Assembly (NCBI RefSeq): GCF_012295615.1
Contig: NZ_CP051183.1
Location: 1,639,001 to 1,703,000, forward strand
Reading direction: 5' to 3'
Origin: Bermanella marisrubri
GTDB lineage: Bacteria; Pseudomonadota; Gammaproteobacteria; Pseudomonadales; Oceanobacteraceae
DNA length: 64,000 bases
Shown here: positions 5,397 through 57,535 of the stretch, piece by piece
Position numbering within the stretch: the stretch's first letter is position 1
How the letters are laid out: each line of letters begins with the position of its first letter
Position numbers and translations under genes: made by a program
Notes under the pieces: model-generated
Seen by the model: the letters and a program-made list of their open reading frames with translations, nothing else
What the model was told of the DNA's origin: nothing
The model's database searches: none

Positions 5397-5801
5397 TTTT
5401 ACTTCTAGAGCTCATGTTTGGCGTCTGAAACGCGGGGTTGAGCCTAATCAAAATATTTATGCGTGCTTCGCGTGGATATCTATACCAATTGTGTTTAGAA
5501 CGACTGCTTCCACGCAGGGGTGTGAGGTCTAATCTTTATTATGCGCCTGACACCAACACGAAACATAAGCTGATTCTGCAAGACCCTCTTGCGTAATCAG
5601 AACGTATATTTCTTCGTTTTCAGTGGCAATTTGGCCACTGAAATCCAAAATTCCGGGAAGTTTTTACCTAACTCCCCCAGTTTACGTTATCATTCCGGCC
5701 TTTCTTAAGTCGGGGAACTGCCCCGAGTATTCACCGGAATGGCTGAATATAGCAAAGATTGCCATATCGTCAAACCGGTTTTTCTTAGGTACGAGTTTTA
5801 T
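5397..5801. promoter_or_regulatory. divergent rne/rluC control region with rne leader hairpins
   Basis: About 400 bases without a gene between the divergent rne and rluC starts. Two hairpins lie on the side that would be the rne leader. One at 5570-5600 is nested: CTGATT/AATCAG outside, GCAAGA/TCTTGC inside, with a 3-nt loop. The other at 5618-5643 is a perfect 10-bp stem (TTTCAGTGGC) with a 6-nt loop. Neither has a T tract, so they are not terminators. In E. coli, hairpins in a similarly long rne 5' UTR allow RNase E to destabilise its own mRNA. I could not place promoters with confidence. Confidence 0.6.
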
Positions 5802-6758
5802 ATGTCCGAAAATTCTAAGCGTGGCGTGCAGTTTGAGGAAGTAACAGCGGACTATGTTGGCCAGCGCATAGATAACTTTCTTATGTCTCGCATCAAGGGT
5901 GCGCCAAAATCCTTGGTCTATCGAATCATTCGAAAAGGCGAGGTTCGTGTCAATAAAGGCCGCATCAAACCTGAGTATAAGGTTAAGTTGGGTGATGTGG
6001 TTCGTATTCCGCCGGTTAAGGTGAAAGCTGAGGGTGATGCAGCACCAATCAGTAAAGATATGGCTGAGGGAATTGAGCAAAGTATTCTATTTGAAGATGA
6101 CTATTTTCTTGCGGTGAATAAGCCCCGGGGCATGGCCGTACACGGTGGTAGTGGTATTAGTCTGGGGTTAATCGAAGTGCTGCGTAATTTGCGGCCAAAA
6201 GCTAAGCGATTGGAGTTGGTCCATCGACTCGACCGAGATACGTCTGGAGTGATCCTTGTTGCCAAGCGTCGCACTGCTCTGGTGGCCTTCCATAAAATGT
6301 TGCAGCGAAAGCAGGGAATGCAAAAGCGCTATTTGGCTTTGGTTTATGGTAATTGGCCCAAGCACCTCAAAGATGTAGAAGTGCCATTAAAGAAAAATGA
6401 GCTTAAGTCTGGCGAGCGATTGGTAAAAGTTGCTCAGGATGGCAAGCCGAGTCACACCCGTTACTCAATTGAGCGTAAGTTTAAAGGTTATACCTTGGTT
6501 AATGCTGAGCCTGTCACTGGGCGCACTCATCAGATACGTGTTCACTGCCAGTTTTCGGGTCATAACATTGTGGGTGATGAAAAGTATGCCACGGATGAAG
6601 AGTTGCAAGGGGCAAGGCAGCAGGGGGCTAGAAGGTTGTTTTTACATGCGCAATCTTTGCGTTTTAAACATCCTGAGACGGGCGAGAAAATGACAATTCA
6701 AGCTCCGCTTGATGAAGCCTTTGAGCAGTTTTTAAGTAGTTTGGATGCAAAACATTAA
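5802..6758 (+). CDS. rluC: 23S rRNA pseudouridine synthase RluC
   Basis: A 318-residue enzyme. It has an N-terminal S4 RNA-binding domain (GQRIDNFL, YRIIRKGEVRVNKGRIKPEYK) and the RluA-type catalytic domain with HRLDRDTSGV, whose Asp is the nucleophile, and later GRTHQIRVHCQFSGH. RluC makes pseudouridines at positions 955, 2504 and 2580 (E. coli numbering) of 23S rRNA. I start at ATG 5802 because it gives the E. coli-like length; a 21-residue upstream extension is open but unlike the family. The stop overlaps the next gene by 1 nt (TAATG). Confidence 0.95.
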   Translation: MSENSKRGVQFEEVTADYVGQRIDNFLMSRIKGAPKSLVYRIIRKGEVRVNKGRIKPEYKVKLGDVVRIPPVKVKAEGDAAPISKDMAEGIEQSILFEDDYFLAVNKPRGMAVHGGSGISLGLIEVLRNLRPKAKRLELVHRLDRDTSGVILVAKRRTALVAFHKMLQRKQGMQKRYLALVYGNWPKHLKDVEVPLKKNELKSGERLVKVAQDGKPSHTRYSIERKFKGYTLVNAEPVTGRTHQIRVHCQFSGHNIVGDEKYATDEELQGARQQGARRLFLHAQSLRFKHPETGEKMTIQAPLDEAFEQFLSSLDAKH

Positions 6759-7408
6759 TGAGATACAAAGCGGTTATTTTTGATTGGGATGGAACACTGG
6801 CTGATTCTACGGGCGGCATTGTGATGGCGATGCAATACGCTGCCAATAAGCTGAGAGTCGCATCGCGATCCGATTTTGATATTCAGCAAATTATTGGTCT
6901 TGGTTTGGCAGAAGCAATTCAAACACTGTGGCCCGAGCATGAAAGTGATGAAAAATTAGTATCTGAAGTTGCGGGGGCTTACGCTGAGTTTTATATGTCG
7001 GATAAGCGCCCGCCGATTAATTTGTTCGATAGCGTGACTGACATGATTGATGATTTGAGGTCTACACAGCACAAGTTAGGGGTGGCAACGGGGAAGGCGC
7101 GTCGAGGTTTGACTCGCGCATTGCAAGAAACAGGTTTGAGTCATGCGTTTCATGAAACACGTTGTGCAGATGAGACGCGATCTAAGCCTCACCCGTTAAT
7201 GCTGGAAGAGCTACAGCAAGTTTTGGGTTTGGATGTTTCCGAAATGGTTATGGTCGGCGATACTCAGTTTGATATCGAAATGGGTAAGCGAGCGGGAATG
7301 TCGACCATTGCCATTACTCATGGGGCGCATACCCATGAAAAACTGACCCAAGCAGAACCTGACTACGTAGTACATTCTATCGAGGAATTGCATCAGTGCT
7401 TGCGCTAA
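6758..7408 (+). CDS. HAD-superfamily hydrolase (phosphoglycolate-phosphatase-like)
   Basis: A 216-residue HAD subfamily IA hydrolase. Motif I is FDWDGTLADS (residues 8-17) with the nucleophile and acid/base Asp, motif II is VATGK, motif III is around SKPHP, and motif IV is MVGDTQFDIEMG. The helical cap lies between motifs I and II. The substrate is unknown; members next to rluC are usually annotated as phosphoglycolate phosphatase-like. It overlaps the rluC stop by 1 nt, so it is translationally coupled. Confidence 0.9.
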   Translation: MRYKAVIFDWDGTLADSTGGIVMAMQYAANKLRVASRSDFDIQQIIGLGLAEAIQTLWPEHESDEKLVSEVAGAYAEFYMSDKRPPINLFDSVTDMIDDLRSTQHKLGVATGKARRGLTRALQETGLSHAFHETRCADETRSKPHPLMLEELQQVLGLDVSEMVMVGDTQFDIEMGKRAGMSTIAITHGAHTHEKLTQAEPDYVVHSIEELHQCLR

Positions 7409-7460
7409 GTATTGGTTAATTGTTATATCCGTTTTAATTATTTAAATAAGGAAATAAGGT

Positions 7461-8429
7461 ATGTATCAAGATCCGGTTGAGCGACCTGATTCGGATAAAG
7501 AGTGGAAACTCATTGAGAAAATGGTCATGAACGTCAATGCTGAGCAGCGACGCTCTCGTCGATGGGGTATCTTCTTTAAACTGCTTACTTTTGTTTATCT
7601 TTTTGCTGCTATTTTAATTTTCATGCCGTCGGACGTTGATAGTTCGAAATTGGCCGCCAGTGGAAAATTCACCGCACTAGTCGAAGTGAGGGGGGTGATT
7701 GCTGACGGAGAGGAGGCATCAGCTGATATTATTGTGACGGGTTTACGAAACGCTTTTGAAGCGGAGGGCGCTCAGGCTGTTATTTTGCGTATTAATAGTC
7801 CTGGTGGATCTCCAGTGCAATCGGGCTACGTGTATGACGAGATAATGCGTTTAAAAGAGCTGCACCAAAAACCAGTGTACGCCGTGATTTCAGATCTTGG
7901 TGCCTCAGGCGCCTATTATATGGCAGCGGCGGCGGACGAAATTTATGCCGATAAGGCCAGTTTAGTCGGTTCTATTGGTGTTGTAGGTTCTGGCTTTGGC
8001 TTTGTTGATGCTATGGATAAGCTTGGTGTAGAACGCCGCCTCTTTACGGCGGGCGAGCACAAAGCGTTTTTGGATCCGTTCTCACCGCTTGACAAGAAAG
8101 AAGAGCAGTTCTGGGAGCAAGTTTTATCAACCACTCATGATCAGTTTATTGAGCAAGTCAAAAAGGGTCGTGGCGATAGATTAGTGGACAACGATAAATT
8201 GTTCAGTGGTTTGGTGTGGACAGGTGAACAGGCGTTGGGTTTGGGTCTCGTGGATGGCCTAGGCAGCAGCAGTTACGTGGCTCGTGAGCTTGTCGGCGCT
8301 GAAGACATCGTCGATTTCACGCCTCAACCAACGCCATTTGAGGCCTTGGTTGGTCGATTTGGAACGCAAATCGGAAAAGGAATTGCGTCCATGATGGGGC
8401 TGAATGGCATGGGATTTCAGCTACAATAA
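7461..8429 (+). CDS. signal peptide peptidase SppA-type serine protease (S49)
   Basis: A 322-residue membrane-anchored protease with one transmembrane helix at about residues 36-55 and a periplasmic S49 domain. The catalytic Ser is in LGASGAYYMAAAADEI (near residue 148). The general-base Lys is in TAGEHKAFLDPFSP (near residue 200), the usual spacing of about 50. NSPGGSP is the family's oxyanion region. It degrades cleaved signal peptides or misfolded membrane proteins. This is the short, single-domain form rather than the long E. coli SppA. Confidence 0.92.
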   Translation: MYQDPVERPDSDKEWKLIEKMVMNVNAEQRRSRRWGIFFKLLTFVYLFAAILIFMPSDVDSSKLAASGKFTALVEVRGVIADGEEASADIIVTGLRNAFEAEGAQAVILRINSPGGSPVQSGYVYDEIMRLKELHQKPVYAVISDLGASGAYYMAAAADEIYADKASLVGSIGVVGSGFGFVDAMDKLGVERRLFTAGEHKAFLDPFSPLDKKEEQFWEQVLSTTHDQFIEQVKKGRGDRLVDNDKLFSGLVWTGEQALGLGLVDGLGSSSYVARELVGAEDIVDFTPQPTPFEALVGRFGTQIGKGIASMMGLNGMGFQLQ

Positions 8430-21146: not shown

Positions 21147-22166
21147 TTATTTTGCCTGCCTGAACTCCCCTGGTGTCATCCCTGTCCAATTTTTGAAGCT
21201 TCGATGAAAAGAGCGAGGTTCACTAAAGCCAAGCCTAGCTGCAATATCTTGTATAGACAGTTCACTCTCAATAAGTAGCTCTTTAGCTTGTTCTTCTCTC
21301 ACCTCATCTAATAATTGTTGATAGCTACATTCAAATGCTTGAAGTTTTCTTTGTAAAGTTCGTTCGGTCAATCCTAATCTCTTTGACACCATCTCTTTGC
21401 GTGGAATCCCCTCAAGAAGTAGGCCTCTAATTACGTTTTTTGTTTGCATTGGTAGCGGCTGCTTATCATTAATGTCGGCCATTAAAATGTCAGCATGATT
21501 CTCTAATGTTTTGAGTAATTGCTGATCGGGCTGTCGCATTGGAAGCGATAGTAAGTGATCATCAATGATTAAGGCACTGCTGGATTGGTTAAAGTAAATT
21601 GGGCAATTAAACATGGATTGAAACTGGCGCAGGCTTGTGGCGTCTGGCTGCGGAAATTCGAAATACACTGCCTTTGGCTTGCCATTTGGCTTGTCAACTA
21701 AAAAACGAGCAAAATTAACCCACGAACCTAGCACGTTCGCAATCATATGTGGACGAACCTTTGGATTGGGGTAATTACAAATCCAGCGCATCTCTGTATT
21801 GTCGTCCGCTAAACGGTTAATTTGGCTTGTTCCCATATCGCCAACTAAACGCTCATAAGTTGGGGTTTTCTCTAAGGCTTCTTGTAGCCCATTGCAGTTC
21901 ATTAACATATAACCTAGAACGCTGTATGAGCCCGGCTGGACATAACGAGAACTCTTCAGACCGAAACATGGGTCTTGAGTTTTCTCAATTAAAAGCGCCA
22001 ACAATTCCTGAAAAGATTCGCCACTAATGCGCTTTAGTTTGTTGTCAAGAAGGTCAGAGTTGATACCGACTTGGGCAATCAGTGCACGAGCATCCAACCC
22101 ATAGTCGGCTGCTGTTTTTAAATATTGTAAAACCGCCCCTGAGGAAGCAAAGCCTAAATGCTCCAT
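21147..22166 (-). CDS. AraC-family transcriptional regulator (OruR/ArgR-like)
   Basis: A 339-residue regulator. The N-terminal 200 residues match the Arabinose_bd (PF12625) type of ligand domain, with GINSDLLDNKLKRISGESF and FGLKSSRYVQPGSYSVLGYM. The C-terminus has two AraC helix-turn-helix units (about 250-337), with RLGLTERTLQRKLQ and SIQDIAARLGFSEPRSFHRSFKNWTGMTPGEFR. It is divergent from the AGPS-like operon, with an inverted repeat in the shared promoter region, so it likely controls that operon. P. aeruginosa has, from memory, the same regulator-operon pair (PA3027 to PA3024). Confidence 0.93.
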   Translation of the reverse strand: MEHLGFASSGAVLQYLKTAADYGLDARALIAQVGINSDLLDNKLKRISGESFQELLALLIEKTQDPCFGLKSSRYVQPGSYSVLGYMLMNCNGLQEALEKTPTYERLVGDMGTSQINRLADDNTEMRWICNYPNPKVRPHMIANVLGSWVNFARFLVDKPNGKPKAVYFEFPQPDATSLRQFQSMFNCPIYFNQSSSALIIDDHLLSLPMRQPDQQLLKTLENHADILMADINDKQPLPMQTKNVIRGLLLEGIPRKEMVSKRLGLTERTLQRKLQAFECSYQQLLDEVREEQAKELLIESELSIQDIAARLGFSEPRSFHRSFKNWTGMTPGEFRQAK

Positions 22167-22227
22167 AGTGTATTAAAGCTCTCTTATGTTTATTATGACT
22201 TTATTTGATCTGGCATTGGCATTTTTG

Positions 22228-22274
22228 GTCAGTGTATCCAAATGAGCCAAAGTTACACTGACGGCTATGATAAT
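22228..22274. promoter_or_regulatory. divergent promoter region with 9-bp inverted repeat, candidate AraC operator
   Basis: GTCAGTGTA (22228-22236) and TACACTGAC (22254-22262) are perfect inverted arms 17 nt apart. A GATAAT hexamer at 22269-22274 is a possible -10 for the rightward operon; no good -35 exists, and the right arm occupies that position. This is the layout of an activator-dependent promoter. Confidence 0.6.
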
Positions 22275-22316
22275 CACAGAAAATAATTTCGTCTATTAGT
22301 ATTGAAGGGGATCTAT

Positions 22317-23918
22317 ATGCGTCGTTGGAACGGATGGGGGGATGATTCATTCTCCATGACAACACCCGAATCTGGTATGGAGTTTTTACAGTCTAAGCTC
22401 ACACCAGGTCCTGTCTTGCCGGATGCCGATTTTGCGTCTGTGTGTGAACAGGTTCCAGAGAGTCGACTTCAAGATCATCCTTTGGTCAGTAAAGATAATG
22501 CAGATCGAGTGCGTCATGCGCGAGGACAAAGCTTGCCAGATTGGTTGGCGATGCGTAGCGGAGACTTTGGCGTATTTCCAGATGGCGTTGCTTTTCCTGA
22601 GACTACAGAACAAGTAGAGACTCTTCTCGATTATGCATGGAAGAATGATTATCAAGTGATTCCTTATGGCGGGGGAACCAGTGTAGCTGGGCATATCAAT
22701 CCATTGCAGTCCGTTCAGCCAGTTTTAACCATTGATATGGGGCGCATGAGTCGCTTGCTTGATTTGAACGAGGATAGTCAGATAGCTACGTTTGGTGCTG
22801 GTACTCCTGGTCCAGAGGTGGAATCTCAACTGCGTGCTCATGGTTATACACTGGGGCATTTTCCTCAGTCCTGGGAATTATCCACTATTGGTGGCTGGGT
22901 CGCATCACGTTCAAGTGGACAGCAATCGCTGCGTTATGGGCGTATAGAGCAAATGTTTGCAGGCGGCATCATGGTTACACCAAAAGGACGATGGCAAATC
23001 CCTACTATTCCGGCATCATCCGCAGGTCCAGATTTACGCGAGATGATGCTGGGTAGTGAAGGTCGTATGGGTGTGATCAGTGAGGTCCAAGTGCGCGTCA
23101 CACCACTTGCTAAGGAGGAGCGCTTTTTTGCTGTTTTTGTTCCAAACTTTGAAAGCGCAAAGCAATCTGTAAAAGAAATTGTTCAGAATAAAATCCCACT
23201 ATCTATGCTGCGTGTTAGTAATGCATTAGAAACAGAAACACAGCTTCGTTTGGCGGGTCATGAATCATTAATTAAATGGTTAGAACGCTATTTATCATTT
23301 CGCGGTAACAAAGATGGTAAATGCTTGATTACCTTTGGTGTTACAGGCAATAAAAAGCAAAATGCGTTATCTCTGAAACAAGCTATGTCGGTTTTCTCTC
23401 GGTTTGGAGGGGTAAAAGGGCCTGCGATGATGGGGAAGAAGTGGGCCGAAAATCGATTTAAGTTCCCTTATCTTAGAGAAAATTTATGGTTGGCTGGCTA
23501 CTGTGTTGATACATTCGAAACGGCTACTGATTGGCATCGAGTAACGTCGCAAATGGAATCGATGGAAGCGGCTGTAAAGATGGCTGGCGAGCAATTTGGT
23601 TTTACACCGCATGTTTATACGCACCTGTCTCATATGTACGCTCAAGGTTGCAGTATTTACACCACCTATGTGTTTCCAAATGGTGAGACCTACCAACAAA
23701 CTATGGCCTATTGGAAAGCCATTAAGCAAGCAGCTAGCGAATCTGTTGCAAATGGCCACGCGACCATCAGTCATCAGCATGGCGTGGGTAAAGATCATGC
23801 ACCATTCTTAAAAGCTGAAAAGGGTGATATAGGCATGGCAGTGATAAAAGGCATGGTGGAGCATTTTGATGATAAGCAGCTACTTAATCCAGGTACTATG
23901 CTAGAAAAGGAATCGTAA
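22317..23918 (+). CDS. FAD-binding oxidoreductase, alkyl-dihydroxyacetonephosphate-synthase-like
   Basis: A 533-residue VAO-type flavoprotein. It starts MRRWNGWGDDS, resembling the (K)RWNGWG opening of alkyl-DHAP synthases. The FAD_binding_4 domain (about 90-270) has PYGGGTSVAGH and the ELSTIGGWVASRSSGQQSLRYGR segment. The C-terminal FAD-oxidase domain ends HATISHQHGVGKDH, where eukaryotic enzymes have three consecutive His. Alkyl-DHAP synthase swaps the acyl chain of acyl-DHAP for a fatty alcohol, forming the ether bond. One His is Gln here, so the reaction cannot be assumed. Start ATG 22317 follows GAAGGGG. It leads an operon with GlpD-like and kinase genes. Confidence 0.85.
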   Translation: MRRWNGWGDDSFSMTTPESGMEFLQSKLTPGPVLPDADFASVCEQVPESRLQDHPLVSKDNADRVRHARGQSLPDWLAMRSGDFGVFPDGVAFPETTEQVETLLDYAWKNDYQVIPYGGGTSVAGHINPLQSVQPVLTIDMGRMSRLLDLNEDSQIATFGAGTPGPEVESQLRAHGYTLGHFPQSWELSTIGGWVASRSSGQQSLRYGRIEQMFAGGIMVTPKGRWQIPTIPASSAGPDLREMMLGSEGRMGVISEVQVRVTPLAKEERFFAVFVPNFESAKQSVKEIVQNKIPLSMLRVSNALETETQLRLAGHESLIKWLERYLSFRGNKDGKCLITFGVTGNKKQNALSLKQAMSVFSRFGGVKGPAMMGKKWAENRFKFPYLRENLWLAGYCVDTFETATDWHRVTSQMESMEAAVKMAGEQFGFTPHVYTHLSHMYAQGCSIYTTYVFPNGETYQQTMAYWKAIKQAASESVANGHATISHQHGVGKDHAPFLKAEKGDIGMAVIKGMVEHFDDKQLLNPGTMLEKES

Positions 23919-25528
23919 TGAAATTGCAGGCAGCTATGTCAGACCAACCCATTTCTGAATCCCCCCAGCAAACTATTGAGCAATTGAGCGAGCAATGGGA
24001 TCTGGTTGTGATCGGTGGAGGCATTACCGGGATGGGGGTTGCTAGAGAGGCTGCTAGGCAGGGATTGAGGGTTCTTGTGCTCGAGCAAAAGGATTTTGCT
24101 TGGGGAACATCTAGTCGGTCATCAAAAATGGTGCACGGAGGGCTGCGGTATTTGGCCTCTGGAAACTTACGTCTCACTAGTCATAGCGTGAAAGAACGCG
24201 AGCGCCTAATGAATGAAGCGCCTGGTTTGGTAGACTTGATGGCCTACAGTTGGCCGCACTATAAAAAACAATTCCCTGGTCCTTTCATTTTTAATGCGCT
24301 ATTGGCGCTTTACGATATGTTTGCTGGAAAAAAATATCGTAAGTTTTTATCGCCAGAAGAAACCAGCTATGTGTTACCTCATATCCGTCGCGATGCGCTT
24401 ATTGGCTCAACTCAGTTTGCAGATGCGGTCACTGATGATACCCGTTTGGTAATGCGAGTGATGGATGAGGCAAAAGCAGATGGCGCAGTATGTTTGAATT
24501 ACACACGCGTGATTGATGTAATTAAGCAAGACGAATTGGTTAAAGGTGTGCAATGTGTTGATGAGTGCTCTGGTAAAACTTATTCGTTTTTTGCTAAAGC
24601 GGTTGTCAGTGCAACCGGAGCCTGGGCTGATCAGCTAAGACGAAATCAAGGAGCGAAAAAGAAAATACGTCCGCAGAGAGGAAGTCATTTAGTTATTCCT
24701 CATTGGCGATTTCCTGTTGCTCAGGCCATAACACTCAAGCACCCCGAAGATGATCGCAGTATGTTTATATATCCCTGGGAAGGGACCACTGTGATAGGAA
24801 CCACAGACTTAGATCATCCTGAAGCGGATTTAAAAGAGCCTCATATTCATGAGTTCGAAATACACTATTTACTGAAAGCTGCGAACGCCTTATTTCCGGG
24901 TTCAAGGCTAGAAAAAGAAGACGTAATTGCAACTTGGGCGGGGGTTAGGCCCATTGTTTCCAGTGGCAAGAGTCTGAATCCATCATCTGAAAAACGTGAT
25001 CATAGTATCTGGGACGATAATGGGTTGGTTAGTGTTAGTGGAGGCAAGTTAACCACCTTTAGGTTGATCGCTCTGGATGTATTAAAGATGCTCAAAAAAT
25101 ATGTGCCGGATATCCAATACAAGGATACAGGTGCCCGAATTTTTACTAATCTCGAGCAAGAGCCTGAAGAATTAGAACAACTTGATGGGTTTTGGAAAAA
25201 ACGTCTCGTTGGGTTTTACGGATGTCACATAGATCGCTTTTTTGACTGCGCAAAGCCCGGCGAATTGGCGGTTATCCCTGGAACCCAAAGTTTATGGGCG
25301 CAACTGCGATATAGCTGTCGATACGAATCTGTAGTGCATTTAGATGATCTTCTATTGAGACGTACGCGAATTGGATTGTTGCTTGCTAATGGCGGTGGCG
25401 ATTTTAAAGATCAAATTAAAATGATTTGTCAGTCTGAGTTACCTTGGAATGAAGAGCAATGGCAGCAAGAGTGGCAACGATATCAAGATATTTGGCACGC
25501 CTATTATTCTGTTACACCTGAAAAATAA
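23918..25528 (+). CDS. FAD-dependent glycerol-3-phosphate dehydrogenase (GlpD-like)
   Basis: A 536-residue DAO-family flavoprotein. The dinucleotide motif VVIGGGITGMGVAREAARQG (about residues 30-49) is followed by GTSSRSSKMVHGGLRYL, the mark of aerobic GlpD. Further marks are DDTRLVMRVMDEA, PRRGSH-like PQRGSHLVIP, IGTTDLDH, TWAGVRPIV and SGGKLTTFR. GlpD oxidises glycerol-3-phosphate to DHAP and passes electrons to quinone. Start overlaps the previous stop (TAATG); an ATG at 23936 is an alternative. Its place beside an AGPS-like gene suggests it links DHAP and glycerol-3-phosphate for that enzyme rather than general glycerol use. Confidence 0.92.
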   Translation: MKLQAAMSDQPISESPQQTIEQLSEQWDLVVIGGGITGMGVAREAARQGLRVLVLEQKDFAWGTSSRSSKMVHGGLRYLASGNLRLTSHSVKERERLMNEAPGLVDLMAYSWPHYKKQFPGPFIFNALLALYDMFAGKKYRKFLSPEETSYVLPHIRRDALIGSTQFADAVTDDTRLVMRVMDEAKADGAVCLNYTRVIDVIKQDELVKGVQCVDECSGKTYSFFAKAVVSATGAWADQLRRNQGAKKKIRPQRGSHLVIPHWRFPVAQAITLKHPEDDRSMFIYPWEGTTVIGTTDLDHPEADLKEPHIHEFEIHYLLKAANALFPGSRLEKEDVIATWAGVRPIVSSGKSLNPSSEKRDHSIWDDNGLVSVSGGKLTTFRLIALDVLKMLKKYVPDIQYKDTGARIFTNLEQEPEELEQLDGFWKKRLVGFYGCHIDRFFDCAKPGELAVIPGTQSLWAQLRYSCRYESVVHLDDLLLRRTRIGLLLANGGGDFKDQIKMICQSELPWNEEQWQQEWQRYQDIWHAYYSVTPEK

Positions 25529-25537
25529 TTATAAATC

Positions 25538-27094
25538 ATGCATAAACAAACCATCCTGACCATTGATAATGGCACTCAGAGCGTACGTGCTTTGTTATTC
25601 AGTTTAAATGGCGATCTGCTGGCCAAGGGTAAAGTAGAAATAGAGCCTTATTTTTCAAAGCACCCTGGCTGGGCTGAGCAAGACCCAGATTATTATTGGA
25701 AAAGTGCAGGAGAAGCCTGTAAGGCACTTTGGAGTAGTACTGACTATTCGGCAGACACAGTTGTTGGCTTAGGTGTTACGACCCAGCGTGGAACAGTGGT
25801 CAATGTGGACGAATATGGAAAACCATTGCGGCCAGCAATTATTTGGTTAGATCAGCGTCACGCAGAAATTGAAAAGCCCATTAAAGGCATTTGGGGCGTT
25901 TTATTTAAAGTGTTAGGTTTGCGCAATGTTGTTGAGGGCTTTCAGCGCAAAGCGCAAGCCGCTTGGATAGAGCAAAATCAGCCGGATGTTTGGCGCAATA
26001 CGCATAAGTTTTTGTTGCTAAGTGGCTATCTGAATTATCGTTTGACGGGACAATACAAAGACTCCGTCGGAAGTACAGTAGGGTACTTGCCATTCGACTA
26101 TAAAAAGCATGCGTGGGCAGGTCGTCATGATTGGAAGTGGCAGGTGGCCAATGTCCGAAAAGAAATGTTACCGGAGCTAGTGAAGCCGGGTGAGGTTGTT
26201 GGAGAGTTGGAGCCTCACGCAGCTGAACATTTGGGATTGAAAGCGGGTGTCCCCGTCGTCGCTTGTGCGTCTGATAAAGCATGCGAAGTCATAGGTAGTG
26301 GTGGAAATGATTCGCATATTGCTTGTTTAAGCTACGGCACAACGGCAACCATCAATACCACCACTAAGCGTTACATTGAGCCAGTCAAATTTATTCCACC
26401 TTACCCTGCAGCCATTCCTGAGTCATATAATACGGAAGTTATGATTTATCGTGGTTTTTGGATGGTCAGTTGGTTTAAAAATCAGTTTGGATTGCGCGAG
26501 CGTCAAATTGCCGAAGAGCGAGGTGTGCCGCCGGAGATGTTGTTCGATGAGCTGGTGGATTCAGTGCCTGCTGGTTCTATGGGGTTAATGTTGCAACCGT
26601 ATTGGTCGCCTGGTACTCGCATTCCTGGTCCGGAAGCAAAGGGCTCTGTTATCGGTTTTGGAGACGTTCATACAAGAGCACACCTGTACCGTTCAATCCT
26701 TGAAGGGTTGGCTTATGGCTTGCGTGAGGGTAAAGAGCGTATCGAGAAACGTAGCGGAACGCGTATTACTAAGTTAAGGGTTAGCGGTGGTGGTAGTCAA
26801 AGTGATGCGGCGATGCAATTGACAGCAGATATTTTTAATTTGCCTGCGGAGCGACCAAGTACTTATGAAACGTCTGGATTGGGTGCTGCAATCAATGTTG
26901 CTGTCGGGTTGGGTTTTTACGAAAACTATGATGTTGCTATCGATAAAATGACTTCAGTGGGCGACATTTTTTATCCAGATTTGAACACGAGTCGTTTATA
27001 TAATGAACTTTATAAAAGTGTTTATCTTAAAATGTATAAGCGCTTGCAGCCCTTATACAAGCAAATAAAACGCATAACAGGTTATCCGCAATAG
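25538..27094 (+). CDS. FGGY-family carbohydrate kinase (glycerol-kinase-like)
   Basis: A 518-residue kinase with the two FGGY domains. The N-terminal domain (about 6-265) has TIDNGTQSVRALLF, TTQRGTVV and WLDQRH. The C-terminal domain (about 275-490) has SYGTTATINT, SILEGLAYGLREG, LRVSGGGSQSDAAMQLTADIF and SGLGAAINVAVGLG. The region around residues 110-135 is unlike glycerol kinase, so the substrate may be another polyol or an alkylglycerol; this is inference. It is 9 nt after the GlpD-like gene, in the same operon. Confidence 0.9.
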   Translation: MHKQTILTIDNGTQSVRALLFSLNGDLLAKGKVEIEPYFSKHPGWAEQDPDYYWKSAGEACKALWSSTDYSADTVVGLGVTTQRGTVVNVDEYGKPLRPAIIWLDQRHAEIEKPIKGIWGVLFKVLGLRNVVEGFQRKAQAAWIEQNQPDVWRNTHKFLLLSGYLNYRLTGQYKDSVGSTVGYLPFDYKKHAWAGRHDWKWQVANVRKEMLPELVKPGEVVGELEPHAAEHLGLKAGVPVVACASDKACEVIGSGGNDSHIACLSYGTTATINTTTKRYIEPVKFIPPYPAAIPESYNTEVMIYRGFWMVSWFKNQFGLRERQIAEERGVPPEMLFDELVDSVPAGSMGLMLQPYWSPGTRIPGPEAKGSVIGFGDVHTRAHLYRSILEGLAYGLREGKERIEKRSGTRITKLRVSGGGSQSDAAMQLTADIFNLPAERPSTYETSGLGAAINVAVGLGFYENYDVAIDKMTSVGDIFYPDLNTSRLYNELYKSVYLKMYKRLQPLYKQIKRITGYPQ

Positions 27095-27269
27095 CCTAGT
27101 CGTTCACTTCTTTGTACGAAAGCCAAGCAGAGGTGTTTATTATTTAGACAAAGCTGTTTGGGTTTCACATTTTAGCCCAATACTTTTCGATATTTCTGAA
27201 AGATCATGTATCCTCGCGCGCCAGACAAAGTGCGCCAATGCAATTGGTGCTTGAGCGAGGAGAAAAATT

Positions 27270-29015
27270 TTGGCGAACATAGATCGATCCAAACTGGCTT
27301 TTTCATTAGTAAGCATGATGAGCGGTTTAACACTAAGTACTGGATTGCAAGCTGTCGAATTTAACGTTGCAGGAATCGAAGGAAGTTTTAATAGTCAACT
27401 ATCCATAGGATCAAGCTGGCGTGTCGAAGATCCTAGTCAAGCATTGCTTGTTTCTGGCAATAATAATGATGGTAATGCAAACTTCGACAAAGATGATGCG
27501 TTCTCTCAGGTCTTTAAGGGAACTCATGATTTGCATTTGCGTGGCGATTATCACGGCATATTTGTGCGTGGAAAGTATTGGTATGACTTTGCCTTGGAAG
27601 AAGGAAAAGTATCTCAAGGTCATTCAGCAAATAACTTTGCTAGCGATGAAAAATTGAATGACGAGGGCTTTAACGAGTTATCTCAGTTTTCCGGCGCTGC
27701 GCTTATGGATGCATACGTTTACGGTATGTATGAGGTTGGTTATACGCCTATTGATGTGCGCATTGGTCGACAAGTTGTAAGTTGGGGTGAAAGTACATTT
27801 ATTTTAGGTGGTGTGAATTCAATCAACCCTGTTGACGTTAACGCGTTTCGTCGTCCAGGTGCTGAAATCAAAGAAGGTTTGTTACCAGTTAATATGGCTT
27901 ATACCAATATTGGTTTGACGCCCACGTTATCTTTGGAAGCATTTTACCAGTTAGAGTTTCAAGAGACCGTTATCCCAGGTTGTGGAACTTACTTTGCATT
28001 TAACGATTATGCACCTGAAGGGTGTGATGTTGTATTGCTAACCAATGAACAGACTGCGTCTTTGTCAGATGCACAAGTCTATGGTGCTGGATTATTTATT
28101 AATCGATACAGTGATGGTAAGCGTGAAGCTGAAGACGATGGTCAGTATGGTTTAGCTTTGCGTTACTATAGCGAAGCCCTCGGCGATACTGAGTTTGGTT
28201 TGTACCATATGAATATTCATAGCCGCTTACCGTTGATTAGTGGAATTAAAGCGACTGGATGGCAGAATGCTGTGGACGCAGGTGGTGCTAATGCAGCAAT
28301 CGCGAATAATAGCCCGAGTACTTTTTACTACGTTTCTTATCCAGAAGACATCCAATTAACCGGCTTGAGTTTTGCTACCAATGTTGGAGCAGTAGCGGTT
28401 TCTGGTGAGATCAGTCATAAACAAAATGTGCCACTACAGATCAATGCGAATATGCTGCTTACTGCTGGTTTAACGGGTTATTCTGATTCGTTGGCACTGA
28501 ATCAAGATGTAGCTCAAACAGCCGATGGTGCTGATTTTAAAGGTTACCGTTTGTTTGATGTGAGTCAGGCACAATTTACCATGGTGCAATTCTTCGATCG
28601 TATTTTAGGTGCTAGCCGCTATACCCTTATTGCTGAAGCGGGTTATACCTTTGTGCATGACCTTGACGAAAGTGATGAAGCGATTAAGTTCGGTCGTCCA
28701 GGTATTTTTAATGGCGAAGAAGGGTATGTTACTGAGGGATCTTGGGGTTATCGTTTACGTTTCGCGGGTAATTATCGAAACGTGTGGGGGGCAACTGTTA
28801 AACCGACTTTGGCATGGTCTCACGATGTGGAAGGTGTGGCGCCTCAACCCGGTGGTGCATTTGTTGAAGGTAATCAATCGCTAGGCTTGAGTGTCGATGC
28901 CAGCTTTGCAAGGTATTACAGTGTGGGTGTTGCTTTCACACAGTATATGGGCGGAGATTACAATATTTCGGAAGACAGAGACTTCGTATCAATCAGTGGT
29001 TCAGTGCAGTTCTAA
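27270..29015 (+). CDS. DUF1302 family outer-membrane-type protein
   Basis: A 581-residue exported protein. A signal peptide (about 1-28, ending LSTGLQAVEF) is followed by FNVAGIEGSFNSQLSIGSSWRVED, the standard DUF1302 opening. The rest is beta-rich with alternating aromatic residues, WGYRLRFAGNY, and ends in VSISGSVQF with a C-terminal Phe, as in outer-membrane beta barrels. DUF1302 proteins often accompany uptake of hydrophobic substrates. Start is TTG 27270 behind CGAGGAG. The 175-nt gap from the kinase leaves room for a separate promoter, which I could not fix. Confidence 0.85.
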   Translation: MANIDRSKLAFSLVSMMSGLTLSTGLQAVEFNVAGIEGSFNSQLSIGSSWRVEDPSQALLVSGNNNDGNANFDKDDAFSQVFKGTHDLHLRGDYHGIFVRGKYWYDFALEEGKVSQGHSANNFASDEKLNDEGFNELSQFSGAALMDAYVYGMYEVGYTPIDVRIGRQVVSWGESTFILGGVNSINPVDVNAFRRPGAEIKEGLLPVNMAYTNIGLTPTLSLEAFYQLEFQETVIPGCGTYFAFNDYAPEGCDVVLLTNEQTASLSDAQVYGAGLFINRYSDGKREAEDDGQYGLALRYYSEALGDTEFGLYHMNIHSRLPLISGIKATGWQNAVDAGGANAAIANNSPSTFYYVSYPEDIQLTGLSFATNVGAVAVSGEISHKQNVPLQINANMLLTAGLTGYSDSLALNQDVAQTADGADFKGYRLFDVSQAQFTMVQFFDRILGASRYTLIAEAGYTFVHDLDESDEAIKFGRPGIFNGEEGYVTEGSWGYRLRFAGNYRNVWGATVKPTLAWSHDVEGVAPQPGGAFVEGNQSLGLSVDASFARYYSVGVAFTQYMGGDYNISEDRDFVSISGSVQF

Positions 29016-29042
29016 TGGCTGATTGAACTGAATACTGATAGG

Positions 29043-29068
29043 AGGCGGCCGATCGGCCGCCTTTTTTT
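29043..29068 (+). terminator. Rho-independent terminator after the DUF1302 gene
   Basis: A perfect 20-bp GC-rich palindrome (AGGCGGCCGA and its complement, 29043-29062) followed by seven T. The T tract is on the + strand only, so it serves the DUF1302 gene and not the convergent hydroxylase. Confidence 0.95.
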
Positions 29069-29077
29069 GTTTTAATA

Positions 29078-30310
29078 TTAGTTGGTCTCTGCTTGCGATG
29101 TTGAGTGTGCTGATAGGCGCATGGTCGTATAGAGTGTAAAACAACTTGCAATTCCCGCTGTAAGGTTGATGAATTCAACCCAAGTAGGTATCTGTAATTG
29201 TGTTGTCATTGCAATAGCCACTAGAGAAAATTTTATAATCTCACAATAAAGACGCCATGGTTTGCGTTCCTGAACTAAGCCAAGGCTATACAAGCTAAAC
29301 AATAGGACGCCACCAAAAATAAAATGTGTTTGTATGGGTAGATTTGCGGCCAGGTTTAAAAATCCAAATACCCATAAAAAGTTAATTGCTAACTGCGTAA
29401 ATACATACCATTGCTCAGTTTTTGAAAGATTGGAATCATATTTTTCAATTTGCTCGTTGCTTTTTGTAATTGGGAATCGTTGTTCTACATCGTGTGGTCG
29501 GTAGCCAGTGCGTCGGAACCATAAAGTAAACTTATCGCTATAATTATTAGTATTCCATGCGTCTTTCATTAGTTGGGTAATAAAATGTAGGTTTCCCCAG
29601 ATAGGGTTCCAACTTTTTAATTGTGTGCTTATGCCGAATACAACTGGTTCGTTATTTAGCTCTGGTTGAAATGTATTAAATATACGATCCCATACTATAA
29701 AAACGCCGCCGTAATTACGATCCACATATATCTTATTTTTAGCGTGGTGCACTCTATGATTGCTCGGCGTAACAAAAATGGCCTCATACCAATTTGGCAT
29801 GCGTTTAATGGTTTGGGTATGTACCCAGAATTGATAGAGCAAGTTGAGCGCTGCGACACTGGCGAAAATCACGGGATCGATTCCTAAGAAAGCCAGAGGC
29901 ATATAAAAAACCCAGCCAACAATATTGGGTATGCTGGTTTGTCTTAAAGCCGTCGTGAGATTGTACTCTTCGCTAGAGTGATGGATGACGTGGCTTGCCC
30001 ATCCAATATTCATAGTATGGCCAAGTCGATGATTCCAGTAATAGCCAAGGTCGTAAACTATGAAAGCGAAAACCCATGTCCACAGAGTGTTTTCCCAGTG
30101 GTACAGCGCGAAGTGTTCATGTGCGTATATGTAAAAAGAAAATGGAATCGCGGCATACAATATGCGAGTGATCCGGCTGATCATTCCTAATGCAAGGGAG
30201 TTGGTAGAGTCGTTAAGCCGATATACGTCCAGTTGCTTGTATCGAGCCCAACCTAGTTCCAGCAGAATAAGGATTAGAAATCCGGGTATGGCCATTAGTA
30301 TGTAGTTCAT
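29078..30310 (-). CDS. fatty acid hydroxylase superfamily protein, alkylglycerol-monooxygenase-like
   Basis: A 410-residue polytopic membrane protein. Helices lie at about residues 3-21, 45-65, 76-92 and 130-165, with more in the C-terminal 80 residues. The diiron His clusters are HRLGH (94-98), HVIHH (107-111) and HRVHH (185-189). HHSSEEYNLTTALRQ, NLLYQFWVHT and NYGGVFIVWDRIFNTF closely resemble animal alkylglycerol monooxygenase (TMEM195) as I recall it, more than sterol desaturases. That enzyme cleaves the ether bond of alkylglycerols to a fatty aldehyde and glycerol. Its location beside an AGPS-like operon strengthens an ether-lipid role. Bacterial activity and cofactor are unproven. Confidence 0.85.
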   Translation of the reverse strand: MNYILMAIPGFLILILLELGWARYKQLDVYRLNDSTNSLALGMISRITRILYAAIPFSFYIYAHEHFALYHWENTLWTWVFAFIVYDLGYYWNHRLGHTMNIGWASHVIHHSSEEYNLTTALRQTSIPNIVGWVFYMPLAFLGIDPVIFASVAALNLLYQFWVHTQTIKRMPNWYEAIFVTPSNHRVHHAKNKIYVDRNYGGVFIVWDRIFNTFQPELNNEPVVFGISTQLKSWNPIWGNLHFITQLMKDAWNTNNYSDKFTLWFRRTGYRPHDVEQRFPITKSNEQIEKYDSNLSKTEQWYVFTQLAINFLWVFGFLNLAANLPIQTHFIFGGVLLFSLYSLGLVQERKPWRLYCEIIKFSLVAIAMTTQLQIPTWVEFINLTAGIASCFTLYTTMRLSAHSTSQAETN

Positions 30311-30426
30311 GGGGAGCCCTCATGATGCTTATTATTATAGTTCTATTTGAGCATATGAAGGGGTTTAAACAATGATGCTTTCGGCCAGTGTGTGACCTTG
30401 AATGCCTTTCGATTCTTGGCTTTTAT

Positions 30427-31308
30427 CTAGAAGAAAGGCTTCATGATGTATACGAAATAGCCAATGGTGCCCGCAAATACGAGTAGAAAAAATAGGGCAT
30501 ACCACATGAACTTGCGACCAGTGTCTCTTTGGTCTTCTGTAGAAACAATAAGGGGCTGTCCGCTTGCTTTATCCATGTAATTTATATCTTCCATGTTGAT
30601 TAAGTCTTGCTCCATGTTTTCTGCTTCAAGTTTCGCTGCAAGTCTCACTAGCTCCCATTCTTTGTCATCTAATTTACCGTCTTTGTTTCGATCAAATCGG
30701 GTTAAAAGATCGTCGTAATTTTCTTTCCAGCGACGAATTATGCTACCCATTGCGCCCTCACGAGAGTGGCCTTCAATTGGGCGCTTAGTGGTGAAGCTGC
30801 CTAGTGCATAAAGAGGGCTGCCCGGAGCGATAATGGTTTCTGTGTAGCGATAGTTTCCGAACTGTAAAAAGCTATCTTGACGGTCTACGCTCAGTGAAGT
30901 TGGGAAGGGGGAGTTGCCCATCCAGCTCGTGCGGATACCGCCGTATACTTTTGCATCCTTAAGCCGTATTAAGCATTGTCCTGTGGTGTCATCCAAAATC
31001 AATGGTCCTGGGTGGCGACTTGATGAGATAGTGCGCCAAGAGGTCGACTTGTCAGATTGCACCCGCTTCTCAATGCGATAGTCAAACCAGATGCATGGGC
31101 GCTGTGAAAGAGGAGAGGGGATAGGTGTGTGATCCTGCGAAGCAATGCCTTCTAATTCGACAAAGCCTTGGGCGGCTGAGCGTATCTTTGACGTTGGTGT
31201 GTCTTTGATGAGGCGGCCCAGCTTGAAAAAATGTGCAAAGAAATAGAGGCTGCCTAAAGCGATCACAACAATGATCGCAATGATTTGCCAGGGTTGACCA
31301 AGAATCAT
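30427..31308 (-). CDS. GIDE-domain membrane protein with an EF-hand-like loop
   Basis: A 293-residue protein with a transmembrane helix at each end (about 8-26 and 265-288). Between them, residues about 45-190 match the GIDE domain (PF12483) known from the eukaryotic MULAN ligase, including AQGFVELEGIA and YRYTETIIAPGSPLYALG. A calcium-loop motif DRNKDGKLDDKEW lies near residue 205. Start ATG 31308 is preceded by AAGG; an in-frame TTG at 31314 is less likely. It is transcribed after lemA, 8 nt from its stop; GIDE proteins are regular partners of LemA in bacteria. Function unknown. Confidence 0.85.
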   Translation of the reverse strand: MILGQPWQIIAIIVVIALGSLYFFAHFFKLGRLIKDTPTSKIRSAAQGFVELEGIASQDHTPIPSPLSQRPCIWFDYRIEKRVQSDKSTSWRTISSSRHPGPLILDDTTGQCLIRLKDAKVYGGIRTSWMGNSPFPTSLSVDRQDSFLQFGNYRYTETIIAPGSPLYALGSFTTKRPIEGHSREGAMGSIIRRWKENYDDLLTRFDRNKDGKLDDKEWELVRLAAKLEAENMEQDLINMEDINYMDKASGQPLIVSTEDQRDTGRKFMWYALFFLLVFAGTIGYFVYIMKPFF

Positions 31309-31316
31309 GAGCAACC

Positions 31317-31892
31317 TTACTGACTAAATAAGTCTTTTATATTTACATCTTTCTTTTCATGCTCTTCAAATTCAAGGAGATCTGCGCCTTTGAATTTAAA
31401 GAATCGAGCGACTAATACATCAGGAAACTGCTCTATACGTACATTGTTATTGTTGACAGCTTCGTTGTAAAACTCACGACGATCGGCAATGCTGTTTTCT
31501 AGTGCTGAAATGCGTTGTTGTAATTGCTGGAAGCTCTGGTTGCTTTGTAATTCTGGGTAGTTTTCAGCTAACGCAAATAATTGTCCAAGCCCACTGCGGA
31601 GTTGTGTCTCGGCGCGACCAAGCTCTTTAGCGCTTCCGTGTTGTTGCGCACTAGTAACTTGAGATCGAGCTTCAATTACTTGGCGAAGCGTCTCTTGCTC
31701 ATACTTCATGTACTGCTGGCATGTGGCAACTAGTTTAGGGAGCTCCTCGTTGCGCTGCTTTAGTAGTACGTCGATGTTCGACCACGCTTTTGCAACAGCA
31801 TGCTTAAGGTTGACTAGGCCATTATAGATAATGATGGCATAGACGAGCGCAACTGCGATGATTGAAATTGCAATGATTTGATCCGTAGACAT
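31317..31892 (-). CDS. lemA: LemA family protein
   Basis: A 191-residue protein with an N-terminal transmembrane helix (about 5-24) and a cytoplasmic or periplasmic helical bundle. YNGLVNLKHAVAKAWSNIDVLLKQR, YPELQSNQSFQQLQ, RREFYNEAVNNNN and EQFPDVLVARFF are LemA hallmarks. I start at ATG 31892 (MSTDQIIAIS), which gives the family's usual length; the open frame extends further but overlaps the upstream gene. Physiological role is unclear. It pairs with the GIDE protein downstream. Confidence 0.93.
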   Translation of the reverse strand: MSTDQIIAISIIAVALVYAIIIYNGLVNLKHAVAKAWSNIDVLLKQRNEELPKLVATCQQYMKYEQETLRQVIEARSQVTSAQQHGSAKELGRAETQLRSGLGQLFALAENYPELQSNQSFQQLQQRISALENSIADRREFYNEAVNNNNVRIEQFPDVLVARFFKFKGADLLEFEEHEKKDVNIKDLFSQ

Positions 31893-31971
31893 GGTGTACT
31901 TCCTAATGGCTTTGCTGAATCGTATCGTGGGTGTGAAAAAAAGCCAAGAGGTTTGAGAATGGATGGTGACG

Positions 31972-33189
31972 TTATTCAAGTTCTTTGGACTGACTGTCTG
32001 CCTCAATAAGTGCTACTTTATAAATCTCGGATAGCTCATCTACATTTAGCCCATATTGTTCCAGCTCCAAGCTGTTAATGTCATTCAATCTCCCTTCTTG
32101 AATGCGAATGCAAGTATTCAATGCCAGCCCCAGTGGTCCGTTTTTATTGAGGATAGCTTTTTCCATTTCTTGGGGGATACGTAGGCTTTTTAGGACTTCT
32201 AAGATAGGGCGGTCTAGAAATGCGTCCAGTAGTGAAAACAAACCTATGGTATAAAAATCAGAAGGAGAAAATTGTCCAATGCGTTGACCTATTTTCTCGC
32301 AAAACACAGCACGCTCAAGACAGCTTTGAATGAGGGCGTGAGGCTTGTCGTCGAGTGTCCCGAGAGCAACCAGTGAGGCCCATCGTTTCATGTGAGTCAT
32401 GCCGATTCGAGTAATGGCTTGCTGTATAGAGGTGCAGGCGGCCACACTCGCAAAAGCGGCTGAGTTAACCAGTCTCAGTAATTTATAACTCATTTGTGGG
32501 TCTTGGCTTATGGTCTTAGTCAGTTGTGTAACGTCAATTTCTGGGTCTTGTAATTCAGCGAGCATGCGCATGACGACGAGTTTGTTATCAGAAAGTGTTT
32601 TACCTTCTACTAACTGGGGGCGACTTAAAAAGTAGCCTTGAAATAGCTGAAAGCCCAAATTCCTGCAGAATTGATACATCTCATAGGTTTCTACTTTTTC
32701 TGCCAGTAAAACCAGTCCTCTGGGGACGAAGATCTCAGCGAATCTCTGAATTTGTTTTTGTGAAAGCGCTAATACATCAATCTTGACGATATCGACTAGA
32801 TGTAGCAAGGGGGCGCTATTGTTGTTGAGTATAAAGTCATCTAGTGCAAGTTTGGCACCCATGGATTTGGCGTGCTTGAGTGCATCAATGAGCTTGTTGT
32901 CTACCTCGATGTCTTCGAGAATTTCAATGACGTAATGTTTCGGGTCAAATGGTGGTAAGTCCATAATCAGGTTGCGCGTGAAATTGATGTAGGCTGGATG
33001 ATCTCCGCAGATAGTATCCAATCCGGCTTCACCAAACGCATTAAGAAGTACATGACTGGTGGCTTTGTCGCCACATTCAAATTCGGCATGATCCAAAGCT
33101 TTTGGTTGACGAAATAGCAACTCATAGGCGCTGACTTCCAAAGCTTGGTTGTAAATTGGTTGTCGTGCCAATAAGACGTTTTCCGCCAT
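31972..33189 (-). CDS. EAL-HDOD signalling protein (degenerate EAL)
   Basis: A 405-residue protein. An EAL-like domain (about 1-195) retains NFTRNL, LALDDF, VKIDVL, AEKVET and GYFLSRP, but the EAL signature reads YELLFR, so catalysis of c-di-GMP hydrolysis is doubtful. The HDOD domain (about 200-385) has LLRLVNSAAF, IQQAITRIGM and RWASLVALG. This architecture (YuxH/CdgJ type) is linked to motility control in Vibrio. The gene lies upstream of lemA and divergent from cheV, which fits a motility or chemotaxis role. Confidence 0.9.
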   Translation of the reverse strand: MAENVLLARQPIYNQALEVSAYELLFRQPKALDHAEFECGDKATSHVLLNAFGEAGLDTICGDHPAYINFTRNLIMDLPPFDPKHYVIEILEDIEVDNKLIDALKHAKSMGAKLALDDFILNNNSAPLLHLVDIVKIDVLALSQKQIQRFAEIFVPRGLVLLAEKVETYEMYQFCRNLGFQLFQGYFLSRPQLVEGKTLSDNKLVVMRMLAELQDPEIDVTQLTKTISQDPQMSYKLLRLVNSAAFASVAACTSIQQAITRIGMTHMKRWASLVALGTLDDKPHALIQSCLERAVFCEKIGQRIGQFSPSDFYTIGLFSLLDAFLDRPILEVLKSLRIPQEMEKAILNKNGPLGLALNTCIRIQEGRLNDINSLELEQYGLNVDELSEIYKVALIEADSQSKELE

Positions 33190-41115: not shown

Positions 41116-41580
41116 TATTTTTATCCTGCAGCTTTTACGTCAGCGTCAACGCCATAGTTTGTTCAATTTTGTAAAGGAATTAAAGGGTTTTTGTGGACCT
41201 TTTATCATTTATTTTCATATCTATCCTTGATTCTTATGATGTATGCCGCATTTAGAGCGGATGTAGGCAAGAACGTACCATTTGCTGCAAATTGTCCTGT
41301 GTAGTCTACAGTGTAAAAGATCATTTTTGCCCATGACGGGTGTTGCCCTGGTTATTTATCCAGCAAAAAGCCAATCTTTTGATGAAAAACGCCATTAAAT
41401 GGTTGACTTTTTAGGTGAGATTTACGAAGGTTCGAACACCAAATTCAAACGGGCGTATGAATTAGGTTAATTGGGTGTTTTTTAACCAAATGCCCGTCAG
41501 AAAACAGTAGAGCAGGCCAAGTACTCTGTATTTGGTCTGTTTTGCGTTAACTCAGCTAAACATAGCGTGGAGATGTGTTG
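41116..41580. promoter_or_regulatory. fadBA upstream region with PsrA-like operator
   Basis: A 465-bp gap. The clearest element is a 20-bp inverted repeat at 41443-41462: TTCAAAC, GGGC, GTATGAA with an A/T on each side. It differs at one base from the TTCAAAC-N4-GTTTGAA form I associate with the TetR-type fatty-acid regulator PsrA of Pseudomonas and relatives. Another perfect 13-bp palindrome (ATTTGC-T-GCAAAT) is at 41280-41292. A TTGACT at 41403-41408 is a possible -35, but I see no good -10. The rest shows nothing I can name. Confidence 0.6.
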
Positions 41581-44933
<3,353 letters not shown>

Positions 44934-57344: not shown

Positions 57345-57431
57345 GCCCGGGTGGTGAAATTGGTAGACACAAGGGATTTAAAATCCCTCGATCGTAAGAT
57401 CGTGCCAGTTCGAGTCTGGCTCCGGGCACCA
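57345..57431 (+). tRNA. tRNA-Leu (UAA)
   Basis: An 87-nt class II tRNA: acceptor GCCCGGG/TCCGGGC, anticodon stem GGGAT/ATCCC with anticodon TAA, a long variable arm CGATCGTAAGATCG, T loop TTCGAGT, encoded CCA. It ends about 100 nt from the provirus integrase stop, so it is the most likely integration site. Confidence 0.97.
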
Positions 57432-57475
57432 ATTTAAAAGCTAGTAATCATGCGGGTTACAGCTCGATTTTAAAG

Positions 57476-57508: not shown

Positions 57509-57535
57509 GTTGGTCGCGGGATTTTCGCGCATTTT

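Follow-up and report, generated by a model that had tools for sequence, protein, structure and literature searches.

A GliR-type operon of Bermanella marisrubri with a possible role in the breakdown of glycerol ethers

What would a gammaproteobacterium do with an enzyme resembling alkyl-dihydroxyacetone-phosphate (alkyl-DHAP) synthase, AGPS, when the gene for it lies beside genes for an FGGY-family kinase and a quinone-type dehydrogenase? The question is raised by a stretch of 64,000 nucleotides from Bermanella marisrubri (contig NZ_CP051183.1, positions 1,639,001 to 1,703,000; the whole stretch is here called the window). In it, the gene for an AraC-family regulator is divergent from three genes on the same strand, for an AGPS-like flavoprotein, a GlpD-like dehydrogenase and an FGGY kinase (together, the core), which are followed by a gene for a DUF1302 protein and then, convergently, by one for a hydroxylase resembling alkylglycerol monooxygenase (AGMO). 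We tentatively propose that the core is a catabolic operon, switched on by a regulator of the GliR type, for 1-O-alkylglycerols or similar glycerol ethers.

How might such a route run? The FGGY kinase would phosphorylate free alkylglycerol, and the GlpD-like quinone dehydrogenase would convert the alkylglycerol-3-phosphate to alkyl-DHAP. AGPS works through a flavin-bound DHAP intermediate; if the AGPS-like enzyme carried out this exchange in reverse, fatty alcohol would be released through the same intermediate, and the flavin-bound DHAP would be captured by water, yielding DHAP, or by a fatty acid, yielding acyl-DHAP. The ether would in this way be cleaved by the AGPS-like enzyme without oxygen or pterin, and the DUF1302 protein (for uptake) and the AGMO-like hydroxylase would possibly be accessories added in this lineage. 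We infer the steps of this route and its direction; the order of the genes, the residue patterns and a predicted operator are what can be read from the DNA. That a kinase is found together with a quinone-type dehydrogenase speaks for breakdown. Put more generally, and with more doubt, bacteria may break alkyl ether lipids independently of oxygen and pterin, by means of an alkylglycerol kinase, an alkylglycerol-3-phosphate dehydrogenase and a reversed AGPS-type flavoenzyme, yielding DHAP and fatty alcohol. No enzyme other than AGMO is known to cleave the alkyl ether bond, according to the available text of two papers (PMC3617469, PMC7911779).

The core operon and its counterpart in Pseudomonas aeruginosa

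The core was sought in 144 genomes of the order and, for some questions, in a wider sample of 390; neighbourhoods were compared at 50 related loci (12 contigs, and 38 stretches from 37 genomes). AGPS-like matches at E 1e-40 were present in 43 of the 144 genomes, and 39 had a protein of the same group as that of the window (E below 1e-170). A GlpD-like gene lay within 6 kb of the AGPS-like gene in 38 of these 39 genomes, and the kinase gene was nearby too in 35. For three of the four genomes without a nearby kinase (G045, G070 and G071) a match to it lay on a different contig; in G032 the AGPS-like gene stood alone, with neither a GlpD-like nor a kinase gene close by. A divergent GliR-like gene was found within 1.5 kb at 20 of the 50 loci.

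The original prediction had treated all six genes as one cluster. Its open reading frames (ORFs) are all where it placed them and its names for the families agree with Pfam, but the single cluster has to be rejected: the trio is conserved together, whereas the DUF1302 and AGMO-like genes, found at none of the 50 other loci (tblastn, E 1e-5; nine of the 50 show no kinase match or less than 3 kb beyond the kinase, which limits this negative), are local neighbours. The operon, then, is real and conserved, and has been reported previously in P. aeruginosa; here it has two local additions. The trio also occurs in records of Chloroflexi type, one of which (L013) carries it up to the contig end, another (L016) having the AGPS gene and part of the GlpD-like gene. 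In L013 a gene for a GntR regulator with a FadR_C domain (6795-7883) lies directly upstream of the AGPS, GlpD and FGGY genes, and would fit a fatty-acid-linked role.

The counterpart of the window core in P. aeruginosa is the PA3027-PA3024 cluster, the shorter conserved version that had been expected in Pseudomonas. The available text of PMC8151288 (Kotecka et al. 2021) shows binding of GliR to the promoter of this operon, with activation, and increases on GliR overproduction in PA3464, a phospholipase C, and PA3023, a YegS-like lipid kinase; PA3464 promoter fusions in Escherichia coli responded only slightly. That a phospholipase C belongs to the GliR regulon fits lipid breakdown. No alkylglycerol is named among the growth conditions in that text. 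In the open-licence literature, among the matches listed, we found no account of bacterial alkylglycerol catabolism and nothing on these genes beyond the same paper; ethoxylate-chain cleavage by Pseudomonas nitroreducens concerns another enzyme (PMC6497679, available text).

How closely does control of the window genes resemble that by GliR? The best NCBIfam model for the window regulator is GliR itself (NF050186; 431.6 bits), although the score is below the cut-off of 570. Forty AGPS upstream regions (42 less two near-duplicates) gave the motif TGTCnnnAtnnGnCAgTG, with a site scoring at least 9.5 in 27 of the 40. In a ranking made with a model of 23 sites, from which the window and L005 were left out, the site between the regulator and AGPS-like genes came second and fourth among all positions on both strands of the 64 kb. 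An operator upstream of the AGPS gene appears to be conserved, and we predict it to be a GliR site.

Might the AGMO-like gene share this control? A second candidate site, upstream of that gene, ranked 24 on one strand of the window and 50 on the other. A genome-wide pattern drawn partly from it had three exact matches, two of them by design; the third, between porin-like and transporter-like genes (named by eye), was dropped, and when one mismatch was allowed the reversed control was about equally frequent (19 vs 16). A candidate GliR site before the DUF1302 gene (27209-27228) was rejected: it ranked 19, slightly better than the AGMO site, but on one strand only (its next rank being 172, where the AGMO site has 50), and has neither the TGnC start nor the CAgTG end. 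Neither the DUF1302 nor the AGMO site is relied on here. GliR-site scores upstream of AGMO-like genes differed between 13 cluster-bearing and 17 cluster-free genomes of a first sample (p 0.011; 30 of its 35 genomes had AGMO-like loci). For 57 previously untested regions (25 vs 32, two of them from the first-sample genomes G049 and G025) p was 0.15, and for the pooled 38 cluster-bearing and 49 cluster-free genomes it was 0.019, the 38 being every cluster genome with an AGMO-like gene and the 49 coming from 62 cluster-free ones. Pooled scores of at least 8 were seen in 16 of the 38 and six of the 49, one cluster-free genome reaching 14.8; in genus g55, split post hoc, scores of at least 9 were seen in five of five cluster-bearing and one of five cluster-free genomes. 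These figures are suggestive of GliR control of the AGMO-like gene, and no more.

Residue patterns of the three core enzymes

By sequence comparison the flavoprotein is rightly called AGPS-like, being nearer to AGPS than to other VAO-type oxidases: its closest solved relatives are AGPS (2uuu, E 4.5e-68; 4bby, 7.2e-61), with D-lactate dehydrogenase far behind (2.1e-17). Its start is likely to be ATG 22317 rather than TTG 22302, with GAAGGGG upstream and a protein that begins MRRWNGWG. Residues were mapped through an alignment with guinea-pig AGPS that included 48 cluster proteins, one further locus giving a fragment. The window protein has equivalents of all the residues that we take to be important in AGPS catalysis (H300, T309, S367, R419, R515, Y578, H615 and H617). 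Across the group H300 is kept in 49 of 49, and T309, R419, R515, Y578, H615 and H617 in 48 of 48; the S367 equivalent is Ser in 41 of the 48, Thr in six and Met in one. The middle His of the HHH motif (His616) is Gln in the window protein, as had been pointed out, and in 43 of 48 homologues, five having His. Beside H300, the E301 equivalent is Phe or Tyr and that of D303 is Gln, as they are in a second bacterial AGPS-like group (L177-L185). That group has HHH at nine of nine loci and is without R515 in three, H300 in two and R419 in one; L177, the one member compared, and the window protein resemble solved AGPS to about the same degree.

The GlpD-like protein has a predicted fold matching GlpD/GlpO structures, in a good model (predicted local distance difference test, pLDDT, 84). 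Equivalents of R54, Y55 and R317 are present in 47 of 47 proteins and of K354 in all 45 aligned; we take these to be the phosphate-site residues with which GlpD holds its substrate. At the Y59 position there is Gly in 44 of 47, and the score against NF008899 (291.9 bits) does not reach the cut-off of 360. In the kinase, R83, W103 and D245 (presumably the catalytic Asp) are kept in 44 of 44. At E84, Q246 and F270, which we take to be glycerol-pocket residues of GlpK, the picture is different: Q246 has become Lys and F270 Thr in 44 of 44, and E84 is replaced by Gly (23), Ala (9), Tyr (7), Ser (4) or Thr (1). A consistent reading would be that the phosphate end is unchanged and the far end altered, mostly to smaller residues.

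The kinase falls below the cut-offs for GlpK (TIGR01311, 169.6 of 590 bits) and XylB (273 of 380). Canonical GlpK, over its cut-off, is encoded elsewhere in 38 of the 39 cluster genomes, including this one (L101), and GlpD exceeds the NF008899 cut-off in 20 of the 39 (a narrow cut-off, passed by one of 14 control genomes), so that plain glycerol use does not explain the cluster kinase. These counts also mean that a remark in the available text of PMC8151288, that strains identified outside Pseudomonas lack glpK and glpD, is not transferable here. The suggestion that the cluster kinase phosphorylates glycerol is not supported, given the canonical GlpK and the lost pocket residues; the link to glycerol ethers gains support, and a catabolic direction, which had been one of two offered, is supported as one option.

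Objections and competing explanations

Several observations weigh against a catabolic operon for glycerol ethers. Deletion strains of P. aeruginosa showed no phenotype with glycerol, with citrate or on the BIOLOG plates used, and the authors propose a biosynthetic route to alkyl-DHAP (PMC8151288, available text). The pocket argument is uneven, with Y59 itself being Tyr in two and His in one of the three canonical GlpD sequences; only these and three GlpK sequences made up the canonical comparison, and the Tyr at E84 in seven of 44 kinases is a further difficulty. The structural model of the kinase is poor (pLDDT 63), and among NCBIfam models xylulokinase fits this protein best. This genome gave no second full-length match to GlpD, and here the GlpD-like protein may simply oxidise glycerol-3-phosphate. 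Recurrent neighbours of the core are mostly generic (10 named by eye), GMC oxidoreductases being near three loci only, and at one locus (L078) a short-chain dehydrogenase gene (5736-6641) immediately precedes the AGPS gene, on its strand, a homologue being in the same place in L084.

Could the substrate, then, be some other small glycerol or polyol compound, with the FGGY protein acting as a sugar or polyol kinase, the GlpD-like protein as a polyol-phosphate dehydrogenase and the AGPS-like protein in another redox or exchange step? The xylulokinase match would agree with this, and so would the greater breadth of the AGPS-like family in bacteria, where the second, HHH-bearing group occurs elsewhere and L177 matches AGPS about equally well. 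We think this unlikely, if still to be reckoned with, since the phosphate-site residues of GlpD and the catalytic residues of AGPS are kept throughout the group and phospholipase C belongs to the GliR regulon (PMC8151288, available text).

Ether-lipid biosynthesis seems to us distinctly improbable, even though it is the direction proposed in the available text of the GliR paper (PMC8151288). On this scheme the kinase and dehydrogenase would turn glycerol into DHAP, an acyltransferase would form acyl-DHAP, and the AGPS-like enzyme would supply alkyl-DHAP to the ether lipids of the membrane. The near-complete retention of AGPS catalytic residues is in keeping with it. The short-chain dehydrogenase encoded upstream of AGPS in L078, and its homologue in L084, may also be brought into play, as a possible alkyl-DHAP reductase, for we take the animal alkyl-DHAP reductase to have the same fold. 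Synthesis, however, would need a DHAP acyltransferase and a fatty-alcohol-forming reductase as well as an alkyl-DHAP reductase, and neither of the first two was recognised among the neighbours (20 scanned and 10 named by eye, most neighbours being unscanned and no genome-wide search having been made for these two enzymes). CarF (PF10520) was not found in the host genome; one of the 144 genomes has it over the cut-off, and that one is cluster-free, while G032 has a below-cut-off match interrupted by stops. Moreover, canonical GlpK is already present in nearly all the cluster genomes, and enzymes of the GlpD type oxidise rather than reduce.

What part might the AGMO-like hydroxylase play? Human AGMO has nine His and six further essential residues (PMC7911779, PMC3617469, available text), and the window protein has equivalents of them all: the nine His (an eight-His motif and H201), Q162, D233, N235, Y236, W243 and D244. 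At the position equivalent to Glu137, a tetrahydrobiopterin-binding residue missing from other proteins with the hydroxylase motif (PMC3617469, available text), the window protein has Thr99, whereas long bacterial relatives have Glu there in 44 of 46 sequences and in 31 of 39 more (a 40th being a spurious match). The pterin hydroxylase family PF00351 has no match in the host genome, as against 32 of 144 in the order, no search having been aimed at other pterin genes, and the hydroxylase has no solved relative at E<=1. A grouping with sterol hydroxylases, named beforehand as the result that would tell against an AGMO, was looked at by residues, and by these the protein is of AGMO type; it is termed AGMO-like only, having Thr for Glu137, and a plain alkylglycerol monooxygenase is not supported, the catalytic set being present but the pterin-binding Glu and PF00351 missing.

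In the long bacterial AGMO-like family (L029-L058, L104-L160) most members have the pterin Glu. Co-occurrence of this family with PF00351 over the 144 genomes (12 of 35 vs 12 of 109; p 0.003, kinship uncorrected) suggests that some bacterial members depend on pterin. For the AGPS-like gene the association is the same (13 of 39 vs 11 of 105; p 0.002), and common descent may therefore account for both. A bold reading would be that the family, with its mostly Glu137-bearing members, contains true bacterial AGMOs.

In the 390 genomes, AGPS-like genes are present in 95, long AGMO-like genes (E 1e-60) in 100, and both in 38 (odds ratio 2.5, p 4e-4, kinship uncorrected). The two thus co-occur, but they hardly ever adjoin, as a six-gene cluster would have required: among the 38, the best AGMO match is on another contig in 33 (some of these contigs being short), more than 700 kb away in four, and near only here. 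That the AGMO-like hydroxylase itself cleaves alkylglycerol to glycerol and an aldehyde, the kinase and GlpD-like enzyme then using the glycerol, would accord with its catalytic residues, with this co-occurrence and with the GliR-like site upstream of its gene, but is very improbable in view of the 57 of 95 cluster genomes without a long AGMO-like match at E 1e-60, the solitary case of adjacency, the Thr in place of the pterin Glu in a genome without PF00351, and the lack of any role for the AGPS-like enzyme.

If the core is indeed a catabolic operon for glycerol ethers, a widespread bacterial operon would cleave the alkyl ether bond by flavin chemistry, with a biosynthetic enzyme family being used in breakdown. 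It would hint at the means by which alkylglycerols are used by marine and soil bacteria, and would provide a function for an uncharacterised regulon of P. aeruginosa.

Layout of the locus and comparison with known systems

The host genome is of 3.55 Mb in two contigs, and among named relatives the closest found was an uncultured Thalassolituus, whose AGPS-like protein is 76% identical. The features of the locus are listed in Table 1. The AGPS-like and GlpD-like ORFs overlap by one base and the kinase ORF begins 9 bases after the latter; a terminator scan of the 175-base gap between the kinase and DUF1302 genes gave no terminator-like site. Terminator-like sites in the region number 11, against a shuffle mean of 9.8, which is no excess. 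The DUF1302 family is presumably located in the outer membrane; the window member has no solved relative at E<=1.

Table 1. Positions of genes and candidate control sites at the Bermanella marisrubri locus
Feature	Position in window	Strand	Basis
AraC-family regulator, GliR-like	21147..22166	-	PF12625/PF12833; best NCBIfam model GliR NF050186
Predicted pseudo-palindromic GliR operator between the regulator and AGPS-like genes	22212..22236		Motif scan
AGPS-like flavoprotein	22302..23918	+	FAD_binding_4 and FAD-oxidase_C; PDB AGPS match
GlpD-like FAD dehydrogenase, proposed alkylglycerol-3-phosphate dehydrogenase	23918..25528	+	DAO/DAO_C
FGGY kinase, proposed alkylglycerol kinase	25538..27094	+	FGGY_N/C
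DUF1302 protein, probable outer-membrane protein	27270..29015	+	PF06980, E 6e-152
Terminator-like hairpin 3' of DUF1302 gene	29040..29065	+	11 pairs, 7 G-C, T run
AGMO-like FA_hydroxylase, convergent	29078..30310	-	PF04116
Possible GliR operator, 60-80 bases upstream of AGMO-like gene	30368..30392		Motif scan

Beyond the AGMO-like gene, consecutive genes at 30427-33189 encode GIDE-domain, LemA and HDOD/EAL proteins. The GIDE and LemA genes, like their DUF1302 and AGMO-like neighbours, were found at none of the 50 other loci (tblastn, E 1e-5), and an HDOD/EAL-like protein (named by eye) is also encoded downstream of the kinase in L066, L074, L079, L091 and L092. Further along the window are a fadB/fadA-like beta-oxidation pair (ECH/3HCDH and thiolase; 41575-44933) and, at 57345-61698, a tRNA-Leu gene followed by genes for a phage integrase (57536-58561, minus strand) and a phage replication gene A protein (59929-61698), which is probably the start of a prophage.

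How, finally, does the locus compare with systems already known? With the GliR/PA3027-PA3024 system it has in common the regulator family, the gene order and the divergent arrangement, and its predicted operator resembles, without being identical to, motif A as given in the available text of the GliR paper; it differs in that no YegS-like kinase gene adjoins it, its neighbours being the DUF1302 and AGMO-like genes, and in having a regulator under the GliR equivalog cut-off. Beside AGMO (TMEM195), the window hydroxylase has the same nine His and six further residues and a comparable long C-terminal part (410 residues in all, as against 445 in the human protein), but differs in the Thr at the pterin-binding position and in its host's lack of a PF00351 pterin hydroxylase. 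The GlpK/GlpD pathway employs the same families of kinase and FAD dehydrogenase, and the phosphate-site residues of GlpD are kept in the GlpD-like protein; here, however, both proteins are below their family cut-offs and altered in pocket residues, and a canonical GlpK is encoded separately. AGPS (EC 2.5.1.26) shares with the window flavoprotein the WNGWG start and the catalytic residues, while HQH stands for HHH and Phe and Gln for E301 and D303 in the window protein, whose gene sits with those for a kinase and a quinone-type dehydrogenase and whose reaction, we propose, would run in the reverse direction.

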